Virus record (IMG/VR): IMGVR_UViG_3300036852_000070
Location: 1-44,461 of that record
Reading direction: 5' to 3' (one strand)
From: a virus
Length of the DNA stretch: 44,461 bases
This document shows, piece by piece, positions 189 to 44,461 of this stretch; the stretch's first letter is position 1, and every line of letters starts with the position of its first letter. Made by a program: the position numbers and the translations under genes. The notes beneath the pieces are model-generated. The model was not told where the DNA came from. It searched no databases and worked only from the letters and a program-made list of their open reading frames with translations.

Positions 189-630
189 GAGGAGGCGCTA
201 ACATTCAGGCCATGGCCAAGCAACCGCGCTGTTCAGCCGCCCGGCGTCGGCAATGGCAGGACCCAGTTTACCGCGCCCGGATGGCTGAGGAACGGAAGCG
301 CCGTTGGGACGATCCGGTTCGCCGTGCCGCGATGACAGCCAAGCGCATCGCCAGCCGCACAGCCAACAAGACTCGCCGCCGGACAGAGAACCTCGCTGCC
401 GCCCGCGAGAAGCGCCGCACCGCTGGCTGGCTCGACCGCGTCCGTGGGAAGTGCGTCTATTGTGGCGCTGAGGCTCGGACCACGGACCATGTCATCCCTC
501 GCGGGCGGATTGGCTGGGGCGAGCCCGACAACGTTGTGCCCTGTTGCGGCAAGTGCAACCGCTCGAAAGGATCGCGGACCCCGCTGGAGTGGCTAAGTTC
601 GGGGCTCTACAAGTCCTGATTGAGCACGAT
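189..630 (+). mobile_element. HNH endonuclease insertion flanked by an 11-bp direct repeat
   Basis: TTGAGCACGAT occurs at 178-188 and again at 620-630, immediately after the HNH stop codon at 617-619. Removing 189-630 would restore the palindrome AGCACGATCCGTGCT, close to the intact AGCACGATTCGTGCT at 44108-44122 in the other copy. The segment is therefore a 442-bp insertion with a target-site-like duplication, and the right end shows the empty site. The 11-bp repeat resembles a duplication made by repair of a staggered cut, but that mechanism is inference. Confidence 0.75.
212..619 (+). CDS. HNH homing-type endonuclease with basic N-terminal repeats
   Basis: A 135-residue predicted DNA endonuclease. 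The C-terminal part has the HNH fold pattern: CVYC (about 81-84), TTDHVIPRG (about 90-98), then N and CCGKCNRSKG, giving two zinc-knuckle CxxC pairs around the catalytic His. The N-terminal 60 residues are very basic and hold two copies of a W-x-DP-V-x-R-A motif, like the modular DNA-binding repeats of homing endonucleases. The same architecture occurs in the HNH protein at 15497. It sits alone inside a control region, flanked by an 11-bp direct repeat, and is absent from the other copy of this locus. Homing-type mobility is inferred from this context. Confidence 0.85.
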   Translation: MAKQPRCSAARRRQWQDPVYRARMAEERKRRWDDPVRRAAMTAKRIASRTANKTRRRTENLAAAREKRRTAGWLDRVRGKCVYCGAEARTTDHVIPRGRIGWGEPDNVVPCCGKCNRSKGSRTPLEWLSSGLYKS

Positions 631-734
631 CCGTGCTTAGCAAAGACAATCGTGCTGAAAATCGTCTGAAATCGTGACGCATTTGAGCACGGTTTGTCTT
701 TGGAAATCTGGCCGGTTTGTCTTTGCATAGGGGC
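620..734. promoter_or_regulatory. cluster of repeated operator-like sites upstream of promoter 1
   Basis: Two motifs recur here in both orientations. AGCACG or its complement CGTGCT occurs at 623, 632, 651 and 686. TTGTCTTTG or its complement CAAAGACAA occurs at 641-649, 694-702 and 717-725. The pair is fused as AGCACG-R-TT-(T)-GTCTTTG at 686-702 (forward) and 641-656 (reverse). The 623-637 pair is nearly palindromic. The right copy has a shorter version with two AGCACG sites and one TCTTTG. These are likely binding sites for a regulator of promoter 1; replication iterons are an alternative. Confidence 0.55.
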
Positions 735-763
735 TTTACAACCGCGGGGCGCGCCGCTAAGAT
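735..763 (+). promoter_or_regulatory. promoter 1 (early rightward)
   Basis: TTTACA at 735-740, a 17-bp spacer, and TAAGAT at 758-763, followed by GAGCGC. The same architecture with the same flanks (GGGC before the -35, GARCGC after the -10) recurs at 5502, 12021 and 44154. The -35 and -10 boxes fit a housekeeping sigma factor. It reads into the leader and the hammerhead-containing early operon. Confidence 0.85.
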
Positions 764-924
764 GAGCGCAGCGAAAGGAGACAAGAGAATACCCGACCTC
801 CTACCGGAGGAACCGCGAGTCCAAGATCCGACCCCCGCAACGGCGGGGACAACCGGGGAGACGAGTCCGGAGCCGGTGAAAGGACTGAGGAAGTAGCCGA
901 GAGGCGAACCCCCGAACGATTCAA
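764..924 (+). ncRNA. structured 5' leader of the early transcript
   Basis: Untranslated RNA ahead of the first ribozyme. Two clear hairpins are visible: CCTCC (797-801) with GGAGG (806-810), and a 6-bp stem 833-838/843-848. Bases 758-880 are identical in the right-end copy although the DNA on either side has diverged, which argues for selection on the RNA or DNA sequence. I cannot match it to a known riboswitch class. Confidence 0.5.
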
Positions 925-1078
925 GCCGAAACCCGACCAACCTAACCTGCTGATACGAGCGTACTCGACGGCGGGCGTTGCGAGAGCCGATGAATGCCGG
1001 TCCCTTGACGGGGCCAACGGGCACGGGCAGACGCCTCTGGGTTGGTCGGGTCTGCCAGACCACTGGCACTGATGAGGC
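925..1078 (+). ncRNA. type II hammerhead ribozyme 1 (enlarged stem III)
   Basis: Core elements in type II order: GCC (925-927, stem II 5' strand), GAA (928-930), stem III ACCCGACCAACC (931-942) with GGTTGGTCGGGT (1040-1051), cleavage nucleotide C1052 after GGGU, stem I TGCCAG (1053-1058) with CTGGCA (1063-1068), CTGATGA (1069-1075), and GGC (1076-1078, stem II 3' strand). Stem III is closed by a 97-nt insert that is identical in the right-end copy. Cleavage would leave a 5' hairpin directly before the AAGGAG ribosome site of the next gene. Confidence 0.9.
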
Positions 1079-1091
1079 AAGGAGAACTACG

Positions 1092-1304
1092 ATGGCTGGA
1101 ACCTTCGACCGCAAGAACAACAACGGCACGGCGCGCTGCGTCGAGTGCGGTACCCTCCGCCAGAAGGCCAACGGCGAGTACGCTGGTGGAACCTTCCACT
1201 GCAACCCCTGCTACGAGCGCGCTGGCGACGAGAACAGCGTTGCCGATGGCTGGATGACCGAGGCCGACTTCGTGGCCAAGTACGGCCAGCCGTCAGGGTA
1301 CTAA
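1092..1304 (+). CDS. small zinc-ribbon protein, first early gene
   Basis: A 70-residue protein of unknown function with two knuckles, CVEC (about 16-19) and CNPC (about 37-40), spaced as in a treble-clef or zinc-ribbon fold, and an acidic C-terminal tail. The start at 1092 lies 7 nt after AAGGAG. It is the first protein gene after promoter 1 and lies between hammerheads 1 and 2, so it should be made from its own processed mRNA. Proteins of this type are common among early phage genes and can be nucleic-acid binding or host-directed. Neither role can be decided from sequence. Confidence 0.75.
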   Translation: MAGTFDRKNNNGTARCVECGTLRQKANGEYAGGTFHCNPCYERAGDENSVADGWMTEADFVAKYGQPSGY

Positions 1305-1358
1305 GCCGAAACGCCCGCGAGGGCGTCCGCCGGGGTGACCACCCGGCGCTGATGAGGC
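1305..1358 (+). ncRNA. type II hammerhead ribozyme 2 (compact)
   Basis: A 54-nt unit starting right after the previous stop codon: GCC (1305-1307), GAA, stem III ACGCCC/GGGCGT (1311-1316/1321-1326) capped by GCGA, cleavage C1327 in GUC, stem I CGCCGGG/CCCGGCG (1328-1334/1342-1348), CTGATGA (1349-1355), GGC (1356-1358). Every conserved core position is present. The closing stem II is only 3 bp. Confidence 0.93.
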
Positions 1359-1378
1359 AGGTCACCGAGGAGAACAAG

Positions 1379-1678
1379 ATGACTCACTTCCGCAAGCAGC
1401 CCAACGGCTCATGGGCCTTCGACTCGCCGATCACAGGCACCACTTACTACGCCTACCGCAACGAGGCCGGGTTCGCCGGACGCGACTGGTACGTCACCCG
1501 GTTGGACAGCACCGCCGACGGGACCATCGAGGTCACGGTTGAGGACATGCTCGCCAGCCGCAAGGAGTGCGTTCAGGTCGCTGAGATGGACGCGAAGGAT
1601 CAGGACCGGCGCGCGGGCTACCGCGCACAGGTGGACGCGGCTCTCGCCGCTGGTCACGACCTGTTCGGTCAGTCATAG
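1379..1678 (+). CDS. early protein of unknown function
   Basis: A 99-residue soluble protein I do not recognise. The N-terminal half is aromatic-rich with alternating polar and hydrophobic residues suggesting beta strands. The C-terminal half is helical and charged. ATG at 1379 follows GAGGAG by a short spacer. It lies between hammerheads 2 and 3. The stop codon directly abuts the GCC strand of the next ribozyme, as in several other genes here. Confidence 0.75.
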   Translation: MTHFRKQPNGSWAFDSPITGTTYYAYRNEAGFAGRDWYVTRLDSTADGTIEVTVEDMLASRKECVQVAEMDAKDQDRRAGYRAQVDAALAAGHDLFGQS

Positions 1679-1730
1679 CCGAAACCCGGTTCGCCGGGTC
1701 CGGTGGGCGCCATCCCACCGCTGATGAGGC
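1678..1730 (+). ncRNA. type II hammerhead ribozyme 3 (compact, UUCG-capped)
   Basis: GCC (1678-1680), GAA (1681-1683), stem III ACCCGG/CCGGGT (1684-1689/1694-1699) closed by a UUCG tetraloop, cleavage C1700, stem I CGGTGGG/CCCACCG (1701-1707/1714-1720), CTGATGA (1721-1727), GGC (1728-1730). Stem II can extend by an A-T pair (1677/1731). This is the cleanest member of the series and differs from its neighbours in nearly every paired position, with pairing kept. Confidence 0.94.
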
Positions 1731-1748
1731 TGGCACAAGGAGAACACC

Positions 1749-1967
1749 ATGGCAACCCACAAGCAACTGTTCGAGGCCGGTGCCAAGTACCGCTCGATCG
1801 ACGTTTACGCGCACGATGCCAAGGAGGCCATCGAGGCCGCCAAGGTCATCGGCGAGGACTACGGAATCAAGTTCCTGAAGATCCGCTCCGTCGAGGAGAA
1901 GGACGAGCCGACCGCCACCGAGTCGCGGTCAATCTACCTCGTGAGCGGCTGGGCGGTTCGGTCATGA
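1749..1967 (+). CDS. early protein of unknown function
   Basis: A 72-residue protein, not recognised. It has an Ala/Glu/Lys-rich helical middle (HDAKEAIEAAKVIGEDYG) and a C-terminal strand region. The helix followed by a K-F-L-K-I-R strand suggests a small alpha/beta fold. Start at 1749 follows AAGGAG. Its stop overlaps the start of the next gene (ATGA at 1964), and no ribozyme separates these two, so they probably share one processed mRNA. Confidence 0.72.
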   Translation: MATHKQLFEAGAKYRSIDVYAHDAKEAIEAAKVIGEDYGIKFLKIRSVEEKDEPTATESRSIYLVSGWAVRS

Positions 1968-2188
1968 GCAAGCAGGAATGGCTGGTCTACACGGACGGCC
2001 AGCCAAACGCTTACGCCTTCACCCGCGGCGCCAAGACCGCTGCGCGCCGGGCCATGGAGATCTCCGCCGACTACCGTGTCCGGGTGATCGTCACCCACCA
2101 CGGCAAGCAGGCGGGCATCTACACTGGCGCACTCTGGGTGCAGGTCACCGACCAGCGCCTGAACAACGCCATCGAGGCGATGGGTTGA
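1964..2188 (+). CDS. early protein of unknown function
   Basis: A 74-residue protein translated from an ATGA overlap with the preceding gene. Residue pattern (LVYTDGQPNAYAFTRGAKTA near the start, then helices and a V-R-V-I-V-T strand) resembles the previous small protein in layout: strand, charged helix, strand. The two may be diverged duplicates, but this is weak. No catalytic motif is visible. Followed immediately by hammerhead 4. Confidence 0.72.
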   Translation: MSKQEWLVYTDGQPNAYAFTRGAKTAARRAMEISADYRVRVIVTHHGKQAGIYTGALWVQVTDQRLNNAIEAMG

Positions 2189-2189
2189 A

Positions 2190-2247
2190 GCCGAAACCGG
2201 CCCGCTGGCCGGTCGCTGTGGGATGGCTGCCCACGGCCTGATGAGGC
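2190..2247 (+). ncRNA. type II hammerhead ribozyme 4 (compact)
   Basis: GCC (2190-2192), GAA, stem III ACCGGCC/GGCCGGT (2196-2202/2207-2213) with loop CGCT, cleavage C2214 in GUC, stem I GCTGTGGG/CCCACGGC (2215-2222/2230-2237, one U-G wobble), CTGATGA (2238-2244), GGC (2245-2247). It starts just after the stop codon of the upstream gene and ends before AAGGAG of the next. Confidence 0.93.
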
Positions 2248-2267
2248 AAGCCAACAAGGAGAACCCC

Positions 2268-2906
2268 ATGAGCGCTGAATTCACCCCCAAATGCAAGGCT
2301 GATTCCAAGTCGTCCTCCTACCACTACTACGCTTGCGGCAAGCCCGCGATCGCGATCGGTGTGGGCGGCTGGGGCGGAGCCACCAAACTGACCCCGCTGT
2401 GCAAGAAGCACGTCGGGATCGAGAAGCGGCGGACCTACAAGGACTTCCGCGAAGTCCGCGACATCACCGCCGAAGACCTCGTGACCCTCGCGGCAGAGGC
2501 TGCCACCGCGGCGATCGTCGCCAAGGAGGAGCGCGAGCGGAAGGCCATCGAGCAGGCCGCTCGGACAAAGGCCGCTCAGGAGCGCGCCGCTGCCGAGGCC
2601 GCCAAGGTCGTCGCGTGGAAGCGCGCCGACAAGGACGGCGAACTGGACTGGGAGGCCAGTCGCGCCGCGCGCGAAGCCGACCCAGAGGCCGACATGGTCC
2701 TCGGGCCATCCATCCCGCGCTGGATCGGCCAGCCCGCGGGCGGGTTCGGGTCCTTCGAGATCGTGTTCGACCAGCGGCCCGGCTTCCCGCTCACGATGGA
2801 CATCCGCCACAGCAGCAACCTGACGGTCAACGAGGCCGAGGCGCTGCGCGATATGCTGAACGCGGCCATCGATCTGGCCCGCGGCGGTCTCTACCCCAAC
2901 AAGTAG
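2268..2906 (+). CDS. early protein with Ala/Glu/Arg-rich coiled coil
   Basis: A 212-residue protein of unknown function. The N-terminal 50 residues contain two Cys and several His that could bind metal. Residues about 65-130 are a long Ala/Glu/Lys/Arg-rich helix typical of a coiled coil. The C-terminal part looks globular, with a helical end. ATG at 2268 is preceded by AAGGAG. Nothing identifies its partner. It is the largest protein of the hammerhead-separated part of the operon. Confidence 0.75.
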   Translation: MSAEFTPKCKADSKSSSYHYYACGKPAIAIGVGGWGGATKLTPLCKKHVGIEKRRTYKDFREVRDITAEDLVTLAAEAATAAIVAKEERERKAIEQAARTKAAQERAAAEAAKVVAWKRADKDGELDWEASRAAREADPEADMVLGPSIPRWIGQPAGGFGSFEIVFDQRPGFPLTMDIRHSSNLTVNEAEALRDMLNAAIDLARGGLYPNK

Positions 2907-2908
2907 TC

Positions 2909-3095
2909 GCCGAAACCGGGCGCTGCCCGTGATGATCGCCGAGCGGAGGCGATACGCGCAGGAACCTCGAGTTCGCTGCGGGCAGCAAGCCGACTGGTGG
3001 AGCACGAGCCGCGCTCGCCTCCCACGGTATCCCTCGTGGGAGCCGGTCGGTCCCGGTCGGGGTGGGGAGCCTCATCCCCCACCCCCTGATGAGGC
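2909..3095 (+). ncRNA. type II hammerhead ribozyme 5 (large branched stem III insert)
   Basis: GCC (2909-2911), GAA (2912-2914), stem III ACCGGG (2915-2920) with CCCGGT (3052-3057), cleavage C3058, stem I GGGGTGGGG/CCCCACCCC (3059-3067/3077-3085), CTGATGA (3086-3092), GGC (3093-3095). About 130 nt lie inside stem III and contain their own hairpins, such as CTGCCCG with CGGGCAG and CCCACG with CGTGGG. The core is intact, so the insert is tolerated or functional. No open reading frame in the insert looks real. Confidence 0.88.
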
Positions 3096-3119
3096 AAGAG
3101 AGGCAAGGAGAAACCGATC

Positions 3120-3506
3120 ATGCCAGAACGCCGGACGCTCATCCGTCGCCGGGCCGATGCGGCTCAGGCGGGGGTCCTTCAGGGCAAGGTCAGCCCGTAT
3201 ATGGGGGAGGTCGTGGGGTTGAGTGCCGCTGTGGACTCCCGGGATCCGATGACTGGCGAGATCCGACCCGCGCTGATGGGAGTGTGCCCCGTCTGCAACT
3301 GCGCCATCCTCGCGGATCAGGGACCGACTGAGGTCCGCATGATCGAGGGCGGGCAGCAGCGCTGGATCCACGGGTCCTTCGACTGCATGGATCAGCCGGT
3401 CTGCACCGAGGTCGTCCGTGGGAACATGCCGGGGACCGGCGAGTGGTCGATCCACTGCCTGCTCCCGGCCAATCACCCCGGTGATTGCTACTGGTCAGAA
3501 GCGTGA
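3120..3506 (+). CDS. Cys/His-rich early protein
   Basis: A 128-residue protein with an arginine-rich N-terminus and a region containing CPVCNC (about 57-62), then HGSFDC, C, HC and HPGDC. The spacing suggests one or two zinc sites, and a W-x-HGSFDC segment followed by a C-terminal H-PGDC is also seen in small phage and actinobacterial proteins of unknown role. Start at 3120 follows AAGGAG. It lies between hammerheads 5 and 6. Function unknown. Confidence 0.72.
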   Translation: MPERRTLIRRRADAAQAGVLQGKVSPYMGEVVGLSAAVDSRDPMTGEIRPALMGVCPVCNCAILADQGPTEVRMIEGGQQRWIHGSFDCMDQPVCTEVVRGNMPGTGEWSIHCLLPANHPGDCYWSEA

Positions 3507-3507
3507 A

Positions 3508-3635
3508 GCCGAAACCCGGCGGGTACGGCTGTGAAGTCGGACGATGCCATCCGTTGAGGATGTTCGGTCGGGGCCGTGAACACAGGACCAACGCCGGGTC
3601 GCGGACGTCCGGTCCCACCGTCCGCCTGATGAGGC
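3508..3635 (+). ncRNA. type II hammerhead ribozyme 6 (medium stem III insert)
   Basis: GCC (3508-3510), GAA, stem III ACCCGGCG (3514-3521) with CGCCGGGT (3592-3599), cleavage C3600 in GUC, stem I GCGGACG/CGTCCGC (3601-3607/3619-3625), CTGATGA (3626-3632), GGC (3633-3635). Stem III holds a 70-nt insert. It follows the upstream stop codon by one base and lies before AGAAGGAG of the next gene. Confidence 0.9.
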
Positions 3636-3656
3636 ACGGGGCCAGAAGGAGAACCG

Positions 3657-3848
3657 ATGGGCGAGAACGCCCGACCCACCGTCACCCTCTCCGATCTTCA
3701 GAGGCTCAGTGAGCAGGACGCACGTCCGAACAAACTGACCGCCGATGAGGTAGAGGACTTCGCCGTGGCCGCGCTGATTGTCCTCCGGGGCATGCGCCGC
3801 GGCGACAAGATCCGGGTGCTTGCCAAGGCACGCCGGTTGCTGGGGTAG
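3657..3848 (+). CDS. small helical early protein
   Basis: A 63-residue protein with an acidic N-terminal half and a basic C-terminal helix (GMRRGDKIRVLAKARRLLG), possibly a short nucleic-acid or protein-binding helix. Start at 3657 follows AAGGAG. It is the last gene separated from its upstream neighbour by a hammerhead. The next gene follows after only 2 nt. Not recognised. Confidence 0.7.
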   Translation: MGENARPTVTLSDLQRLSEQDARPNKLTADEVEDFAVAALIVLRGMRRGDKIRVLAKARRLLG

Positions 3849-3850
3849 CC

Positions 3851-4531
3851 GTGGCTACCATCAAGGAGCAGTTGCTGGCGACCATGCAGCAACACGCGGA
3901 TAGCCGGGGCCGCGTCTCTCTCACCCCGGATGCGCTCGGGAAACGGCACGGCCTGAGTGGCCACGACCTAGTGAAGAACCTCGAGCAACTCAAACAGGAA
4001 GGCCTGCTCACGATCACGTGGAAGGCCGACCGCGTGCAGCGGTTGCAACTACGGCGTGGGGCACTCAACGAGAGCCTGCTGAGGCAGAGGAAGCCCGCGT
4101 TGTCAGGCAAGGACCGCGTTACCAACTGGCTGCTGGGGCAGCCGACTGGACCGGGCGGCTGGGTTGAGACCAATCCCGGTGCCATCCAAGCGGCGCTCGG
4201 CGTCAACGGCCACGGCATCCCAGTAGCCATCTCCGAGATGCAACGGAGCGGACGGCTACAAGTCCGTAAGGCGGGCGCGCGGATCGTGGCTATACGGTTC
4301 GCCAGCCTTGGCGCCAGCGGACCTCAGCGCCCGGCTGAGGAGCCGTCAACTCCTGTTCCAACGGCGTTGCCGGACACGCCGCTGTTGCGGCAGTACATCC
4401 AAGCCCGGCGGTTTGCCAACTTGGCGCCGACGGCTAACCCCTACATCAGCGTGGACTTCAAGGAGGACCCCATGGCCGAGGAGGCCATCTTGCTCCTGAA
4501 GGCGCTGGAAGGAGAACCCAACCGTGACTGA
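3851..4531 (+). CDS. tandem winged-helix DNA-binding protein
   Basis: A 226-residue predicted DNA-binding protein. Two helix-turn-helix-like units are visible: residues about 20-60 (LTPDALGKRHGLSGHDLVKNLEQL then a wing) and about 85-145 (KDRVTNWLLG, then GAIQAALGVNGHGIPVAISEM followed by a basic strand). This fits a protein with two winged helices, such as a phage transcription regulator or replication-origin binder. GTG at 3851 is chosen because it follows the previous stop by 2 nt. It overlaps the next gene by 8 nt. The operator-like repeats at both ends of the window are an obvious candidate target, but that link is inference. Confidence 0.65.
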   Translation: MATIKEQLLATMQQHADSRGRVSLTPDALGKRHGLSGHDLVKNLEQLKQEGLLTITWKADRVQRLQLRRGALNESLLRQRKPALSGKDRVTNWLLGQPTGPGGWVETNPGAIQAALGVNGHGIPVAISEMQRSGRLQVRKAGARIVAIRFASLGASGPQRPAEEPSTPVPTALPDTPLLRQYIQARRFANLAPTANPYISVDFKEDPMAEEAILLLKALEGEPNRD

Positions 4532-5498
4532 CGCAGTCGAGACCATGGCCTACGCCAAGGACCGCGGGCTTCCGTGGCATGGCAAGGGCACCCCGGCGGA
4601 CGGGCTCATGACCGCAGCCGAACTGCTCGAGAAGGCAGGTCTGCTGTGGGAGGTTGAGCAGGAGCCGCTGTACATCTCCGGCCCGGATGGCGGGCTGGCG
4701 GAGATGCAACTCGTCAAGACGCACGTGGCCAACGTGCGATCCTCCGACCACTCGATCCTCGGGATCGTCGGCAACCGCTACCGCCCCGTGCAGAATGCCG
4801 AGGCGCTGTCCATCATGGACGACATCGTGGACTCCGGAGAGGCCAAGTACGACACCGCCGGTTCCCTGTGGGACGGGCGGCGCGTGTTCGTCTCGATGGA
4901 GTTGCCCAAGCACATGAAGGTGACGGGCGACGACTCGGACTACGTTCCCTACCTCGGCCTGATCAACGGCCACGATGGGGGACAGTCCTTCCAGATCATC
5001 CGGACCCAGATCCGCATGGTCTGCTGGAACACCGTGGAAGCGGCCAAGGCCAGCGCGGTTGCGCGCTATGCCGCCCGCCATACCCCCGGTGTCGGCGCTC
5101 GGGTCGGCGAGATCCGGGACATCCTGCGGCTCACCTTCGCAGAGATGGCCACCTTCGAGGAACTGGCCAACGCCATGGCCAAGGTGCGGATCAGTCAGGT
5201 CCGCGCCAAGGAAGTGCTCCTGAAGGTGTTCCCGCTGGCGCAGGCCAAGGATGAGAAGGCCGATCTGGCCGACAGCGACTTCGCTGCGGCGCTGGCCAAC
5301 TGGCAGTCCACCGAGACGCTCAACGACAAGTTGCGCGGAACGGCGTGGGGCCTGTACAACGCCATCGTCGAATACGCCGACTTTGGCCTCAAGTACCACA
5401 AGGACGACAACCGGGCCAACGACCTGATGACCGGCGGCGGACGCCCCGGTGAGATCAAGAAGGTCGCGATGGCCCTGCTCAGCAAGCCCGGCAATTAG
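4524..5498 (+). CDS. DUF932 phage/plasmid-like protein
   Basis: A 324-residue member of the DUF932 (phage/plasmid-like TIGR03299) family. Typical features are present: W-H-G-x-G near the N-terminus, the central VGNRY-x-PVQN segment (about 85-94), a GHDGGQSF-like block, and R-I-VCWNT. Family members are widespread in phages and plasmids next to replication or recombination genes; their biochemical role is not established. GTG at 4524 overlaps the previous gene and follows GGAG. It is the last gene before promoter 2, so it probably ends the first early unit. Confidence 0.85.
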   Translation: MTDAVETMAYAKDRGLPWHGKGTPADGLMTAAELLEKAGLLWEVEQEPLYISGPDGGLAEMQLVKTHVANVRSSDHSILGIVGNRYRPVQNAEALSIMDDIVDSGEAKYDTAGSLWDGRRVFVSMELPKHMKVTGDDSDYVPYLGLINGHDGGQSFQIIRTQIRMVCWNTVEAAKASAVARYAARHTPGVGARVGEIRDILRLTFAEMATFEELANAMAKVRISQVRAKEVLLKVFPLAQAKDEKADLADSDFAAALANWQSTETLNDKLRGTAWGLYNAIVEYADFGLKYHKDDNRANDLMTGGGRPGEIKKVAMALLSKPGN

Positions 5499-5501
5499 GG
5501 C

Positions 5502-5530
5502 TTTACATTGGCGCGCAAAGCCGCCACAAT
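5502..5530 (+). promoter_or_regulatory. promoter 2
   Basis: TTTACA at 5502-5507, 17-bp spacer, CACAAT at 5525-5530, then GAACGCC. Same flanks as promoters 1, 3 and 4. It starts 3 nt after the DUF932 stop codon, marking a new transcription unit. Confidence 0.8.
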
Positions 5531-5603
5531 GAACGCCGCCGGGGGTGGGGTGCCTTCAAGAAGGCGTTCCGGCCCCACTCTCGGCGACAGGAAGGAGAAC
5601 CTC
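5531..5603 (+). promoter_or_regulatory. 5' leader with nested hairpin
   Basis: A hairpin with outer stem GTGGGG/CCCCAC (5545-5550/5573-5578) and inner stem GCCTT/AAGGC (5552-5556/5561-5565) lies between promoter 2 and the AAGGAG (5592-5597) of the first gene. It could stabilise the 5' end of the mRNA, much as stem I would in the ribozyme-processed mRNAs. No CTGATGA or GAAA core is present, so it is not a hammerhead. Confidence 0.5.
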
Positions 5604-5732
5604 TTGTTCACTCGAATCTTTATCGCGCTGCTGCCGTGGCTGGCGGTGGCGTTGTTCATCGTGATGGTGGCCATGGCTGTCGGACTCGGCAACATGTTCG
5701 GCCACGGCATCACGGAATGGCACCTGCCATGA
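5604..5732 (+). CDS. small single-pass membrane protein
   Basis: A 42-residue protein that is almost entirely one hydrophobic segment (residues about 5-30, rich in Leu, Val, Ala and Ile) followed by a short polar tail. TTG at 5604 is chosen because AAGGAG lies 6 nt upstream. It is the first gene of unit 2. Small early phage membrane proteins can act in superinfection exclusion or as host inhibitors; nothing here decides between these. Confidence 0.65.
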   Translation: MFTRIFIALLPWLAVALFIVMVAMAVGLGNMFGHGITEWHLP

Positions 5733-6782: not shown

Positions 6783-7808
6783 GTGGACAAGCATACCGCG
6801 AAAGGCAAGCGACCGGGCCAGAGCCTGAGGCAACTGAAGACTCGGCAGGCGGTGCTAGGCGGTACGGACGCCGCGGCCATCCTTGGGCTGAGCCGCTACC
6901 GCGGCCCATGGGACGTGTTCGCTGAGAAGGCAGGGCTGATCAAGCCGGACCCCACCATGACCGAGGACGCACTCTGGGGACTGCTGCTGGAGCCCGCCAT
7001 CCTGCTGGAGTACCAGCGCCGCACCGATGTTACCATCCTCCCCGCCAAGCGGCTGCGCCGTCACCCGGAGCGCCGCTGGCAGGGTGGCCACGTGGACGGA
7101 CTGGGCAAGGACCGGGTCCTCGAGATGAAGACCCGCGCCAGCGACAACGGCTGGGGTGAGCCGGGCACCGACGAGGTTCCGCCGGACGTGAAGGTACAGG
7201 CAGAGCACTACCTGGCCGTGACGGGCAAGCCGCGAGTGGACATCGCGGTCCTGTTCCGCGGCAGCCGCATGGCCATCTACACCATCTGGGCGGACCAGTC
7301 CATCCTGACGGACCTGACCGAGGAGGAGGCCGAGTGGTGGCATCATCACGTGATCCTTGGCGAGGAGCCCGACTTCGACGGCTCTGCCGCCACCACCGCG
7401 GCGCTCCGCGCCCTGCATCCGTTCGACAGCGGCGAGACACTGGTAGCCCTGCCTCACCAGTACGGGCTCCTGAAGGAGTTCAGTAAGGTACGGGCTCGGT
7501 TGAAGTTCTACCAGCGAGAGGAGGCCACCTTCAAGCAAACGATCATGGCAGCCATGGGTGATGCGGGCACCCTGCTGGCTCCAAACCTGCGCGTCCGTTG
7601 GACCCGTCCGGGGCCGCGCCAAGAGGTAGACTTCCAACGCTACGCGGAGTCGCTGGAGGGTCTGGTAGAGGGTCTGGTATTGGGCACAGTGCCGATCACC
7701 GAGGACCCCCTGGCGACCCGCGCAGCGCTGAAGTCCCTCTACACAACCGAGAAGCCCGGTGTCCCCCAACTCCGGGTCTACGAGAGCAAGGAGAGCCAAC
7801 TTGAGTAA
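6783..7808 (+). CDS. YqaJ-type (lambda-exonuclease-like) recombinase exonuclease
   Basis: A 341-residue predicted 5'-3' double-strand DNA exonuclease of the YqaJ/lambda-exo family. Motifs in order: GGTDAAAILGLS (26-37), GLLLEP (66-71), active-site D105 in GGHVDG, E114-x-K116 in LEMKT, and Q139 in VKVQAEHYL. These form the metal-binding PD-(D/E)xK core. GTG at 6783 is chosen for AAGGAG just upstream. The stop overlaps the RecT start. Exonuclease plus annealing protein is the standard phage homologous-recombination pair, used for concatemer formation and repair. Confidence 0.9.
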   Translation: MDKHTAKGKRPGQSLRQLKTRQAVLGGTDAAAILGLSRYRGPWDVFAEKAGLIKPDPTMTEDALWGLLLEPAILLEYQRRTDVTILPAKRLRRHPERRWQGGHVDGLGKDRVLEMKTRASDNGWGEPGTDEVPPDVKVQAEHYLAVTGKPRVDIAVLFRGSRMAIYTIWADQSILTDLTEEEAEWWHHHVILGEEPDFDGSAATTAALRALHPFDSGETLVALPHQYGLLKEFSKVRARLKFYQREEATFKQTIMAAMGDAGTLLAPNLRVRWTRPGPRQEVDFQRYAESLEGLVEGLVLGTVPITEDPLATRAALKSLYTTEKPGVPQLRVYESKESQLE

Positions 7809-8721
7809 CACGGCCATCGTCCCCCGCGACTACGAGACGCTGCTGGCGCGGAAGGAGGACCGCATCCGGGCGCTGCTGGCAGGCAGCGACCTGACCCCGG
7901 AAGCGTTCATCGGCATGACGGTGCAGGCACTGGCGCGTGACCCGTCCCTGATGGCGCCGGACGTTGATCGCGACAGCCTGATGCTGGCCATCCTGACCAC
8001 CGCGGAGATGGGCCTGACGCCAACCGGGGCGGGCGGTACGCATCTGGTGGCGTACCGCAACAAGCAGACGGGCAAGAAGGACATCCAGCCCATCACGGAC
8101 TGGCGCGGCTTCATCAAGATGGCCATGCGCTCTGGGCAGGTCACCAGCGTGAAGGCCGAGTTGGTCTACGAGGGGGATCAGTTCGAGGTTCAGTTGGGCG
8201 ACGAGCCGCGGCTGTTCCATACCCCCACCCTGGGCACTCCCGGCGAGCCCGAGCGCGGCAACGTCACCCACGTCTACGCGGTGGCGCATCTCGCCAATGG
8301 CGACCGGGTCTTCGAGGTCATGACCGCAGCGGAGGTCAACGCCGTTCGGGACCGAACCCGCGTGTCCGACAAGTCCCCATGGGTGACGGATCCCGGCGAG
8401 ATGGCCCGCAAGACCGTCATCCGCCGCCTGTTCAAGTACCTGCCGGTGGCGGTCAACCCCGTCATGCTGGCGGCGCTGGAACGGGAGGATGCGCTCGAGG
8501 CGCAACTGCCCGCGGTCACAGTGGCGCGGCCTACCAATCGCCAGCAGCGGCTCCTGACACACGCTACGGGCGCAGCGGTTACTGAGGTCCTCGCTGAGGG
8601 CGACGGCAAGGGCGAGGAGGCACCGGGAGAGGCGACCCCTCCAGCGGACTCCAGCGCGGATTCAGGGAGCCCTGAGGCGGTAGTTGACGATGGGCTGCCG
8701 CCGATGGCGCCCAAGTCATGA
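7801..8721 (+). CDS. recT: RecT-type single-strand annealing protein
   Basis: A 306-residue RecT-family protein that coats single-stranded DNA and anneals complementary strands, acting with the upstream exonuclease. Recognisable blocks: LMLAILTTAEMGLTPTG (about 59-75), the HLVAYRNK-TGKKDIQPITDWRGF segment, and MARKTVIRRLFKYLPV (about 201-216). The C-terminal 50 residues are Ala/Gly/Glu-rich and disordered, common in the family. TTG at 7801 lies inside the last codons of the exonuclease gene, so translation is probably coupled. Confidence 0.92.
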   Translation: MSNTAIVPRDYETLLARKEDRIRALLAGSDLTPEAFIGMTVQALARDPSLMAPDVDRDSLMLAILTTAEMGLTPTGAGGTHLVAYRNKQTGKKDIQPITDWRGFIKMAMRSGQVTSVKAELVYEGDQFEVQLGDEPRLFHTPTLGTPGEPERGNVTHVYAVAHLANGDRVFEVMTAAEVNAVRDRTRVSDKSPWVTDPGEMARKTVIRRLFKYLPVAVNPVMLAALEREDALEAQLPAVTVARPTNRQQRLLTHATGAAVTEVLAEGDGKGEEAPGEATPPADSSADSGSPEAVVDDGLPPMAPKS

Positions 8722-12554: not shown

Positions 12555-13058
12555 ATGCCAAGAGGATGGAAGAAAGGTAAGGCGTTGAGCGCCGACCATC
12601 GGGCCGCGATTGGCCGCGCGATGATCGGGAAGCGCAATGCGGCTGGCGCAGTCCGGAGCCCAGACCACCTGGCTGCCCTGGCAGCCGCAAACAATGGCCG
12701 CCTGATGACCTTTGAGCAGCGTCTTGCGCACCGTGTTCGCCAGCACCGCGGCGAGATAGAACGGTTCGCTCGCCACGTTGAGTGGCGCGGGGCCTGCCTT
12801 ATCTGGACGGGCAGCGTGCACAGCGGCGGGTACGGCCAGTTCAAGAATGACCACGGTAAGATGGTCGCCGCCCACCGATGGATCTACATCTGGTGGATGG
12901 GGCCGATCGCGGAAGGGTTGGAAGTGGACCATCTGTGCGAGCACAAGTTGTGCGTGCTACCATTGCACCTGGAGGCGGTCACGCCAAAGGAGAACATCCG
13001 GCGCTACTGGGCTAACCGCCGTGACGCCGCGCTGCTGAAGGTCTGGAGGGGAGCGTGA
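12555..13058 (+). CDS. HNH endonuclease inserted at a gene 3' end
   Basis: A 167-residue HNH nuclease. The N-terminal 60 residues are basic with repeated LSADHRAAIGRAM / RSPDHLAALAAAN motifs, like modular homing-nuclease DNA-binding repeats. The nuclease core has RGACLIWTG (about 76-84), GYGQF, AHRWIYIWWMG, then VDHLCEHKLCVLPLHLEAVTPKEN (about 119-142), the HNH_3-type catalytic block. The last ten residues (AALLKVWRGA) are not nuclease sequence but the displaced end of the upstream gene fused in frame. The GTGA overlap with the dioxygenase gene is carried by this fused tail. Confidence 0.85.
   Translation: MPRGWKKGKALSADHRAAIGRAMIGKRNAAGAVRSPDHLAALAAANNGRLMTFEQRLAHRVRQHRGEIERFARHVEWRGACLIWTGSVHSGGYGQFKNDHGKMVAAHRWIYIWWMGPIAEGLEVDHLCEHKLCVLPLHLEAVTPKENIRRYWANRRDAALLKVWRGA
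13026..13058 (+). other. displaced native 3' end fused to the HNH gene
   Basis: Codes AALLKVWRGA and a TGA that overlaps the next start as GTGA, the usual junction in this genome. Its Leu codons are CTG, the common choice here, whereas the upstream copy uses CTC. Both points suggest this is the original end of the winged-helix gene. Confidence 0.65.
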
Positions 13059-14005
13059 GCGCAGAGCCGTTCTACACTCAGGCGATCGTTGGGCCCACCC
13101 ACTGGTGGAGCCCGAACCCGGCGGACAACCCGGCCATCGCCAAGGTGCGCAAGCGGGAGATCGACCACGACTCCTACAAGATCGACACCCCCAAGGGCCG
13201 GGGCTACCGGAACGCCTTCATCGGTGACGTGAGCCGCCTGTACCATGGCAACTGGCTGTTCTTCGACGAGGACCTGGAGCGGGTGGTGATGGCGTACCTG
13301 ACCATCCCGGAGGACTGCTCCCCGCTGATCCCGTTCCTCAAGCGCATTGACTTCACTGTGTCCAACCGCAACGATGGCACCCCCACCATCGCCAAGACGG
13401 TGGGCTGGCTGGAGCGCCGCCCAACCCGCCAGCAGGACTTCTGCCGGTTGGCCGGGCTGCGGAATGAGGACCCGGCGGCGCACGAGGCCATCCTGTCCTA
13501 CGCGGAGATCGCCACCCGCCACTACCAGACCCTGAACCCCGAACTGTACGGGGAGCACATGGGCCGGGCGGAGGCGCTGCTGGATGAGTACCGCGTGGCG
13601 GGCACCCCGTTCACTAGCGGCATCGTCAACAAGGACAACGTCCTGCCGTACCACTTCGACCGGGGCAACATCACGGACGTGTGGAGCCTGATGCTTGGCT
13701 TCAAGAAGGATGTCGGCCCGACCGTGGATGGGGACGCGGGCTTCCTCGTGGTGCCCGAGTACGATCTGGCGCTGGAGATCGCGGACAACACCCTGAGCGG
13801 CTTCGACGGGCAGGTGGCGCTGCATGGCGTGACCCCGTTCCGTAAGTTGAGCCGCGGCGCGTACCGCTTCACCATCGTCTACTACGCCAAGGCGGGGATC
13901 TGGCAGTGCCTGAGCCTCGACGAGGAACTCCAGCGCGGCAAGCGCATGCGGACCAAGAAGGAGACCGATCGATGGGAACGCGCGCCCAGAAGCAGCGAGT
14001 CGTGA
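13055..14005 (+). CDS. TET/JBP-type 2-oxoglutarate/Fe(II) DNA base dioxygenase
   Basis: A 316-residue predicted dioxygenase that would oxidise the methyl group of thymine or 5-methylcytosine inside DNA. The C-terminal double-stranded beta-helix has the iron ligands H200-x-D202 (in YHFDRGN) and H257 (in LHGV), and R271 in YRFTIVYY, the position that binds 2-oxoglutarate. The spacing and the R-x-T-I-V-Y-Y ending are typical of the TET/JBP family rather than of AlkB. The first 190 residues are family-specific and unassigned. GTG at 13055 sits in a GTGA overlap. Neighbours are a transferase and a kinase of thymine-hypermodification type, so conversion of T to 5-hydroxymethyl-U is the likely role. 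No cytosine-C5 methyltransferase is visible, which also argues for thymine. Confidence 0.78.
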   Translation: MSAEPFYTQAIVGPTHWWSPNPADNPAIAKVRKREIDHDSYKIDTPKGRGYRNAFIGDVSRLYHGNWLFFDEDLERVVMAYLTIPEDCSPLIPFLKRIDFTVSNRNDGTPTIAKTVGWLERRPTRQQDFCRLAGLRNEDPAAHEAILSYAEIATRHYQTLNPELYGEHMGRAEALLDEYRVAGTPFTSGIVNKDNVLPYHFDRGNITDVWSLMLGFKKDVGPTVDGDAGFLVVPEYDLALEIADNTLSGFDGQVALHGVTPFRKLSRGAYRFTIVYYAKAGIWQCLSLDEELQRGKRMRTKKETDRWERAPRSSES

Positions 14006-40893: not shown

Positions 40894-42180
40894 ATGGCCT
40901 CGCCTACTATCGCGAGCGTCGGCAGCAGCGCGCAGACCACTGACCAGACCTCACACACGATGGCGATGCCAGCGAGCATCAGTGCGGGAGACTTGCTGTT
41001 GGCGATCTTTGAGCATGACGGCTCGGCAGCGACCACCGGGGGCTGGCCCGCGGGGTGGACTGTGTTCCCGGAACTCCCTCAGTCAAACGGAACACTCGCT
41101 AGTCAGATCGCCTACAAGTATGCTGCTGGCGGGGAGTCGAACTTCACCCTGACGACCAGCGGTGCCGAGGCGTCTAACTCCCGCTGTTACCGGATTACCG
41201 GCCACGCCGGTACAACCCGACCGCCGCTCTGTAGCGCATGGCTCGGCGCTGGAGCGGCGGGAACAAACGCAGCCCCGGTGTCCCCCTACGAGTGGAAGCA
41301 GCCACAGGACATCCTTGCCATCATCGCCCTGGGGTGGGAGAACACGACTCCCACGCCGACCCCCTCCGGCTACACCAACGAGGTCAATGCCAGTGGCGGC
41401 GGTGCCGGAATCCGCTGCGAGACACGAGCGATCAGCGGCTTCTCCGGGACGGAAGACCCCGCTGCCTACACGACGGGCAGCGGTGGCCGGGCGGGCTGGA
41501 CCATCCTCATTCCGTCAGACGCTGATGATCCTGACTTCTCCTTCCCGATCGTCCGTACTTGGATTGACGGCAAGGGCGTGGCTGGCACCTCTACTGTCAA
41601 CGTGATCCTCCCGCTCCAGCGTGAGGTCGGGGACATCTTAGTTGTCGCCATCGGCCTTATCACGAACGTCACCATTTCCAGTGGGCTGCCTTCCGGCTGG
41701 ACAACCGAGGTGAGCGTTGCCGGGGGCGGGGCGGGAGGCGAGCGGCTGTACGTCCTGTGGAAGCGTTGCGAGGCGAGTGACGTGGACTTCGATCTGACCC
41801 TGAGCGCAGCCTCATCATGGGACCTCGTATCCTGCGCCATCCTCAACATGGCAGACGACACGGACGTTATTTCGGGAACGGCCACCGGGGGGTCTAACGC
41901 CAACCCTGACCCGCCCGACCTGTCTGCCACGGCGGACCTGTGGTGTGCGGTCGAGGAGACGGAGGGCAGAACAGTCACTGCTTATCCGACTAACTACACG
42001 CACCGACAAGCAACGCACACCGGAGGCGGAGGTGGCATCGGCATAGCCTTCCGTCAACTGGCGGCGTCGAGTGAGAATCCCGGCACCTTCACCATGAGCG
42101 GCAACTCCTTCTGGGCTGCCGCCACGCTGGCGTTTGGCAAGGCTGGCCCGCGTTACTTCCAGGGCCAGTGGGTCGCATAA
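40894..42180 (+). CDS. tail protein with tandem repeated domain
   Basis: A 428-residue beta-rich protein with two copies of a domain. In copy 1 SISAGDLLLAIFEHDG...GGWPAGWT (about 29-55) corresponds to copy 2 REVGDILVVAIG...SSGLPSGWTTEV (about 243-270). Likewise GYTNEVNASGGGAGIR corresponds to NYTHRQATHTGGGGGIG. So each half itself holds two related segments. This suggests four related beta units. Likely a receptor-binding or fibre protein assisting the tail-tip protein. It follows it by 1 nt. Confidence 0.68.
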   Translation: MASPTIASVGSSAQTTDQTSHTMAMPASISAGDLLLAIFEHDGSAATTGGWPAGWTVFPELPQSNGTLASQIAYKYAAGGESNFTLTTSGAEASNSRCYRITGHAGTTRPPLCSAWLGAGAAGTNAAPVSPYEWKQPQDILAIIALGWENTTPTPTPSGYTNEVNASGGGAGIRCETRAISGFSGTEDPAAYTTGSGGRAGWTILIPSDADDPDFSFPIVRTWIDGKGVAGTSTVNVILPLQREVGDILVVAIGLITNVTISSGLPSGWTTEVSVAGGGAGGERLYVLWKRCEASDVDFDLTLSAASSWDLVSCAILNMADDTDVISGTATGGSNANPDPPDLSATADLWCAVEETEGRTVTAYPTNYTHRQATHTGGGGGIGIAFRQLAASSENPGTFTMSGNSFWAAATLAFGKAGPRYFQGQWVA

Positions 42181-44107: not shown

Positions 44108-44142
44108 AGCACGATTCGTGCTGGACGTCTTTGCTGAGCACG
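44108..44142. promoter_or_regulatory. intact palindromic operator and half site
   Basis: AGCACGATTCGTGCT (44108-44122) is a perfect 15-nt palindrome around a central T. A second AGCACG lies at 44137-44142 after a TCTTTG (44128-44133). The site is 32 bp upstream of the -35 box of promoter 4. In the left copy this palindrome is split by the HNH insertion. Likely the binding site of a dimeric regulator. Confidence 0.6.
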
Positions 44143-44153
44143 AAAATAGGGGC

Positions 44154-44182
44154 TTTACAACCGCGGGGATAGCCGCTAAGAT
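44154..44182 (+). promoter_or_regulatory. promoter 4 (right-end copy of promoter 1)
   Basis: TTTACA (44154-44159), 17-bp spacer, TAAGAT (44177-44182). The spacer differs from promoter 1 at three positions, but boxes and flanks are unchanged, which supports function. Confidence 0.82.
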
Positions 44183-44461
44183 GAGCGCAGCGAAAGGAGA
44201 CAAGAGAATACCCGACCTCCTACCGGAGGAACCGCGAGTCCAAGATCCGACCCCCGCAACGGCGGGGACAACCGGGGAGACGAGTCCGGAGCCGGTGAAG
44301 GGAGCGAGAAGTAGCGGAGACGCGAACCTCAAGAGATTCAAGCCGAAACCCGACCAACCTAACCTGCTGATACGAGCGTACTCGACGGCGGGCGTTGCGA
44401 GAGCCGATGAATGCCGGTCCCTTGACGGGGCCAACGGGCACGGGCAGACGCCTCTGGGTTG
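44183..44461 (+). ncRNA. right-end leader and partial hammerhead 1 copy
   Basis: Leader 44183-44299 is identical to the left copy. After a diverged linker, GCC (44342-44344), GAA and the 5' strand of stem III (44348-44359) start the ribozyme copy. The window stops 5 nt into the returning strand (GGTTG, 44457-44461), so the rest (cleavage site, stem I, CTGATGA) is missing here. Confidence 0.75.

Follow-up and report, generated by a model that had tools for sequence, protein, structure and literature searches.

Natural type II hammerhead ribozymes were discovered by Perreault et al. in 2011 (PMC3088659), in a report where several hammerheads are described as often flanking genes in prophages and where it is proposed that they cut long phage transcripts to operon or single-gene length. 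In the experiments described there three tandem arrangements gave in vitro products of the expected sizes and a triple hammerhead from Agrobacterium was found to cleave in E. coli; 4 of 18 RNAs matching the consensus showed no cleavage, and stem II commonly has as few as two pairs. The same source describes HHphage of the haloviruses HF1 and HF2, which sits immediately before a start codon on a polycistronic early transcript, with a mapped 5' end at most 3 nt from the cleavage site. In a 2017 review (PMC6155905) the biological function of hammerheads in prokaryotes is described as open.

Here we describe six type II hammerheads in a 44,461 bp viral contig (IMGVR_UViG_3300036852_000070, positions 1 to 44,461; the window in what follows). 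The series resembles the prophage clusters (PMC3088659; RF02276), as these are portrayed in that report, in its permutation, core, short stem II, pseudoknot, gene-flanking position and proposed function in processing, and it differs from the clusters described there in that six units fall within one run of genes, with a stop codon within -1 to +2 nt, and in that three of the units carry stem III inserts of 70-131 nt. With HHphage it shares the location just upstream of a start codon, whereas HHphage, by the same account, is a single, core-variant ribozyme. The initial annotation knew of no six-member intergenic series, but the uniqueness that this suggests is not supported: clustered prophage hammerheads were already published in the 2011 report, and, because other phages carry 9-13 units (see below), a six-member series is not exceptional in number. 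The window series is a further case of a known arrangement, with unusual stem III inserts in half of its units.

Gene neighborhood and the six units

The contig encodes a tailed phage, with terminase, portal, major head protein and tape measure downstream of the ribozyme block and with RecE-like, RecT-like, ParB-like, replication-initiation and HNH proteins encoded between the block and the structural genes. The genes surrounding the ribozymes had been called early, which is plausible from their position and from the RecE-like, RecT-like and replication-initiation matches downstream and may be kept in that sense only. No close relatives of the phage were found, the relatives of its DUF932 protein in viral contigs being only 29-34% identical, and the single match to the array region spans 58 bases, in phage Pablito. 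Genes A to I (1092-5498), most of them without a known family, all lie on the + strand and are listed here together with a promoter-like match.

735-763, + strand: sigma-70-like promoter match TTTACA-17-TAAGAT upstream of the series, a consensus match only
1092-1304, + strand: gene A, 70 aa, with at most a very weak zinc-finger-like match
1379-1678, + strand: gene B, 99 aa, no match in Pfam or PHROGs
1749-1967, + strand: gene C, overlapping D
1964-2188, + strand: gene D, overlapping C
2268-2906, + strand: gene E, 212 aa, no confident family match in profile databases and no tblastn match among phages
3120-3506, + strand: gene F, 128 aa
3657-3848, + strand: gene G, packed close to H
3851-4531, + strand: gene H, overlapping I
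4524-5498, + strand: gene I, DUF932

The promoter-like match at 735-763 is a candidate for the point at which the transcript starts; two sigma-70-like matches occur in the region 600-5700, compared with 0.5 expected. The promoter-like sites at 735-763 and 5502-5530 have the TTTACA hexamer in common and bracket the gene block A to I. A possible leader ORF of 44 codons (762-896) lies upstream of unit 1, and at 13055-14002 the window encodes a protein resembling the phage queuine tRNA-ribosyltransferase family (phrog_6059), which is possibly tied to DNA or tRNA base modification.

A strict scan of the window with a type II grammar (C-GAA-A, stem III of at least 5 bp, U-H, stem I of at least 4 bp, CUGANGA-G, stem II of at least 2 bp, span up to 320) returned six motifs on the + strand and none on the - strand. 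The six are those of the initial annotation, at the same coordinates, with the same sequence elements (GCC, GAA, a stem III with an A-U closure, GUC, stem I, CTGATGA and GGC) and with the same predicted cleavage positions. They are given below along with their scores under the covariance model R1, described further on.

925-1078, + strand: unit 1, cleavage predicted after C1052; stem III of 14 bp with a structured insert of 93 nt; 19.9 bits
1305-1358, + strand: unit 2, cleavage predicted after C1327; directly after the stop codon of A; 67.2 bits
1678-1730, + strand: unit 3, cleavage predicted after C1700; shares one base with the TAG stop of B; 57.9 bits
2190-2247, + strand: unit 4, cleavage predicted after C2214; 61.5 bits
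2909-3095, + strand: unit 5, cleavage predicted after C3058; stem III with a branched insert of 131 nt; 16.3 bits
3508-3635, + strand: unit 6, cleavage predicted after C3600; stem III with an insert of 70 nt; 15.5 bits

When 200 dinucleotide shuffles were scanned on both strands, 198 contained no motif and 2 contained one. Six exact copies of CTGATGAGGC are present in the window, every one inside a unit. As had been claimed, all hammerhead core positions are present in each of the six (C3, U4, G5, A6, N7, G8, A9, G12, A13, A14, the A15.1-U16.1 pair and a position 17 other than G), and each has the type II arrangement, with stems I and III closed by loops, stem II open and a G10.1-C11.1 pair. 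The observation that stem sequences differ between units with pairing preserved is equally sound: over the 5 bp tested in each of stems I and III, pairing within units is 100%, compared with only 37% in stem I and 63% in stem III once strands are exchanged between units.

A search with hammerhead covariance models, by which it had been proposed that the units be checked, gave a divided answer. The gathering cut-off of the Rfam model RF02276 is reached by only two of the six, unit 2 (1304-1366, 55 bits) and unit 4 (2189-2255, 48.6 bits); unit 3 has no long stem III insert, yet it is missing from the RF02276 matches. Model R1, which was built from 44 ribozymes of other phages with the window sequence excluded, places the six units ahead of every other match in the window. 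Units 2, 4 and 3 score 57.9-67.2 bits and units 1, 5 and 6 score weakly, at 15.4-18.7 bits in this search and at the 15.5-19.9 bits listed above in another, because their stem III inserts (70-131 nt) are too long for the model; in these three the R1 alignment departs from the true stem III.

A pseudoknot between loop I and the 3' tail (the stretch separating stem II from the ribosome site), an interaction that speeds the hammerhead reaction, is possible in five of the six units and comprises 4-7 bp.

Unit 2, + strand, 3' strand of the pseudoknot at 1360-1366: 7 bp, GGTGACC/GGTCACC
Unit 3, + strand: 4 bp, GCCA/TGGC
Unit 4, + strand: 5 bp, TGGCT/AGCCA
Unit 5, + strand: 5 bp, GCCTC/GAGGC
Unit 6, + strand: 6 bp, GGTCCC/GGGGCC, including one G-U

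The total tail-loop complementarity of the true assignment is reached by only 2 of 720 assignments, the true one included. No such pairing is possible in unit 1, because there the ribosome site directly follows stem II.

Placement, relatives and series in other phages

Counted from the stop codons of genes A, B, D, E and F, the ribozymes start at 0, -1, +1, +2 and +1 nt, respectively; in most units the stop codon abuts the 5' strand of stem II. The start codon that follows, preceded in each case by a ribosome site, lies 13-24 nt beyond stem II. From A to I, a ribozyme occupies each intergenic gap exceeding 2 nt. There is none between C and D, which overlap by 4 nt, nor among the closely packed genes G, H and I (3657-5498), where G and H are separated by 2 nt and H and I overlap. 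The statement that each unit sits between a stop codon and the next ribosome site is correct for five of them; unit 1 is preceded by the possible leader and not by a confident gene.

Among the 158 relatives listed, whose frequencies describe matches retrieved by pattern and do not extend to phages in general, a stop codon lies at most about 40 nt upstream in 92%, mostly within 5 nt, versus 31% of random positions, and 76% have a ribosome site plus start codon downstream, versus 16% of random positions. A stem II of 3-4 bp is usual among the same 158 relatives listed, so that its shortness, entered as a caveat in the initial annotation, is not a weakness. The covariation score in the relatives is 0.607, compared with 0.152 for shuffled data and at most 0.126 when slid; covariation is strong in stems I and III and weaker in the pseudoknot, where 60% of cells are paired. 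Conservation of the core among these relatives is imposed in part by the retrieval pattern, which fixes some of the core positions.

For 84 ribozymes from eight Streptomyces phages and one contig, in an alignment fitted to the model, the covariation score is 0.659 versus 0.156. Positions C3, G5, A6, G8, A9, G12, A13, A14, A15.1 and U16.1 are invariant in this set, U4 is kept in 83 of the 84 and position 7 varies. By the known hammerhead rule position 17 is not G, and here it is C, U or A in every case. Compensatory changes between syntenic ribozymes were also counted and were set aside as evidence, since the scanner itself demands pairing.

Longer series than that of the window recur in other phages. 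Among sampled viral contigs R1 finds 13, 11 and 9 units on single contigs (G005, G001 and G004, respectively), and 9-12 type II units are found with the same model in each of eight Arquatrovirinae Streptomyces phages (R4, with nine, Pablito, Hank144, Diane, Salutena, Omar, Alvy and SqueakyClean), which were chosen by a match to one Pablito ribozyme. These phages are like the window in having a type II series, located in Pablito between genes of one strand, and unlike it in that they show no close sequence relation to the window phage beyond the 58-base Pablito match; in addition, no stem III loop of more than 30 nt was seen in Pablito. No report of a hammerhead series in Streptomyces phages, Arquatrovirinae or actinophages was found in the open-access literature. 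A link to the aminoglycoside sensitivity of Streptomyces phages (PMC9239200) was considered and dropped, phage Alderaan having no match to the model.

Six ribozymes also surround the DUF932 gene of a distant DUF932 relative (L128), at 4497, 4801, 4886, 5914, 6990 and 7785. All six have CTGATGATG in place of the CTGATGAG of the others, as though a single U were inserted between A9 and G10.1. Two of the L128 ribozymes stand back to back, with a ribosome site between them but no gene, and a tRNA gene at 7860-7949 (tRNA-Gly, anticodon acc, according to ARAGORN) directly follows the ribozyme at 7785-7860.

Predicted transcript cleavage and alternative readings

The spacing and orientation of the genes point to one common transcript, and from the sequence we consider it likely that the six type II hammerheads punctuate this polycistronic phage transcript, cutting it between stems III and I. 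The core and the stems, the pseudoknot and the succession of stop codon, ribozyme and start codon are all as expected for such transcript cutting, which the initial annotation proposed; the uniqueness suggested along with it is not supported. Each unit would fold into stem III, a GUC site, stem I, the CUGAUGA core and a stem II of ~3 bp, with the pairing of loop I to the bases just 3' of stem II holding the fold in five of the six, and would then cut itself once, between stems III and I, converting the transcript into a leader and the messages A, B, C-D, E, F and G-H-I. At each cut the upstream piece would end in the stem III hairpin, carrying a 2',3'-cyclic phosphate and adjoining the stop codon, and the downstream piece would open with the stem I hairpin, bearing a 5'-hydroxyl, and continue through the core strand and the ribosome site to the start codon. 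Type II is the only one of the three hammerhead permutations that leaves a hairpin on both new ends, types I and III leaving one on one new end only, and the likely benefit would therefore be that messages are both freed and protected at their two ends, by which the lifetime of each message could be set gene by gene. Several findings count against this reading: the low model scores of units 1, 5 and 6, the missing pseudoknot of unit 1, the 4 of 18 consensus RNAs that did not cleave in the 2011 experiments, and a lowest-energy fold for unit 6, predicted with pseudoknots ignored, that is not the hammerhead.

Alternatively, the units might be regulated switches, in which the stem III inserts of units 1, 5 and 6 or terminating ribosomes tune cleavage and the array controls expression rather than being cut constitutively, a reading that we regard as unlikely. 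The stem III loops of these units comprise 93, 131 and 70 nt, respectively, and in units 1 and 5 the stem III region does fold better than shuffled sequences (z = -4.6 and -3.5), while a ribosome terminating at the stop codons next to stem II would cover that stem. A stem III loop of more than 30 nt is found only once among the 133 scanned relatives listed, and there a shorter alternative reading is available, but these relatives were retrieved by a pattern that disfavors long stem III loops. Against regulation through the inserts, the stem III region of unit 6 is not unusually stable (z = -1.5), and the three inserts have no 9-mer in common and no convincing match to an Rfam family.

It is very improbable that the elements are non-catalytic hairpins that protect mRNA ends or slow the polymerase, with a core that is decorative or decayed. 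Stable hairpins are indeed present, and the three units with large inserts score low with the model, but core bases that are useless to a hairpin are invariant or nearly so in the 84 ribozymes, positions 7 and 17 varying as the chemistry allows, the core is intact in all six window units, and a terminator scan of 600-5700 gave no + strand site in these gaps. Chance look-alikes can be dismissed almost entirely: the motif is simple and arises by chance in large collections, with 72 of 119 pattern matches from a bacterial and archaeal genome search failing the structural grammar, but this reading is contradicted both by the occurrence of six units in 2.7 kb, on one strand and all intergenic, versus at most one per 44 kb in the 200 shuffles, and by an independent model that puts the same six first.

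For ribozymes that cut a common transcript, concrete predictions follow from the placement rule (stop codon, ribozyme, ribosome site) and from the two-ended hairpins, and in Streptomyces phages that can be cultured, R4 among them, the long series would open the role of the hammerheads to direct testing. More tentatively, and with considerable doubt, ribozyme-punctuated operons may be a regular and selected way in which some phage groups express their genes, type II hammerheads lying against stop codons so as to give every message hairpin ends, with the three structured stem III domains of the window tuning cleavage. In R4 (L278, JX182370) three of the ribozymes coincide with annotated tiny ORFs.

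41762-41845: gp60.1, coinciding with the ribozyme at 41772-41839
44125-44217: gp67.1, coinciding with the ribozyme at 44140-44207
47073-47174: gp75.1, coinciding with the ribozyme at 47092-47159

Judging from these positions, the three ORFs are probably misannotated ribozymes.
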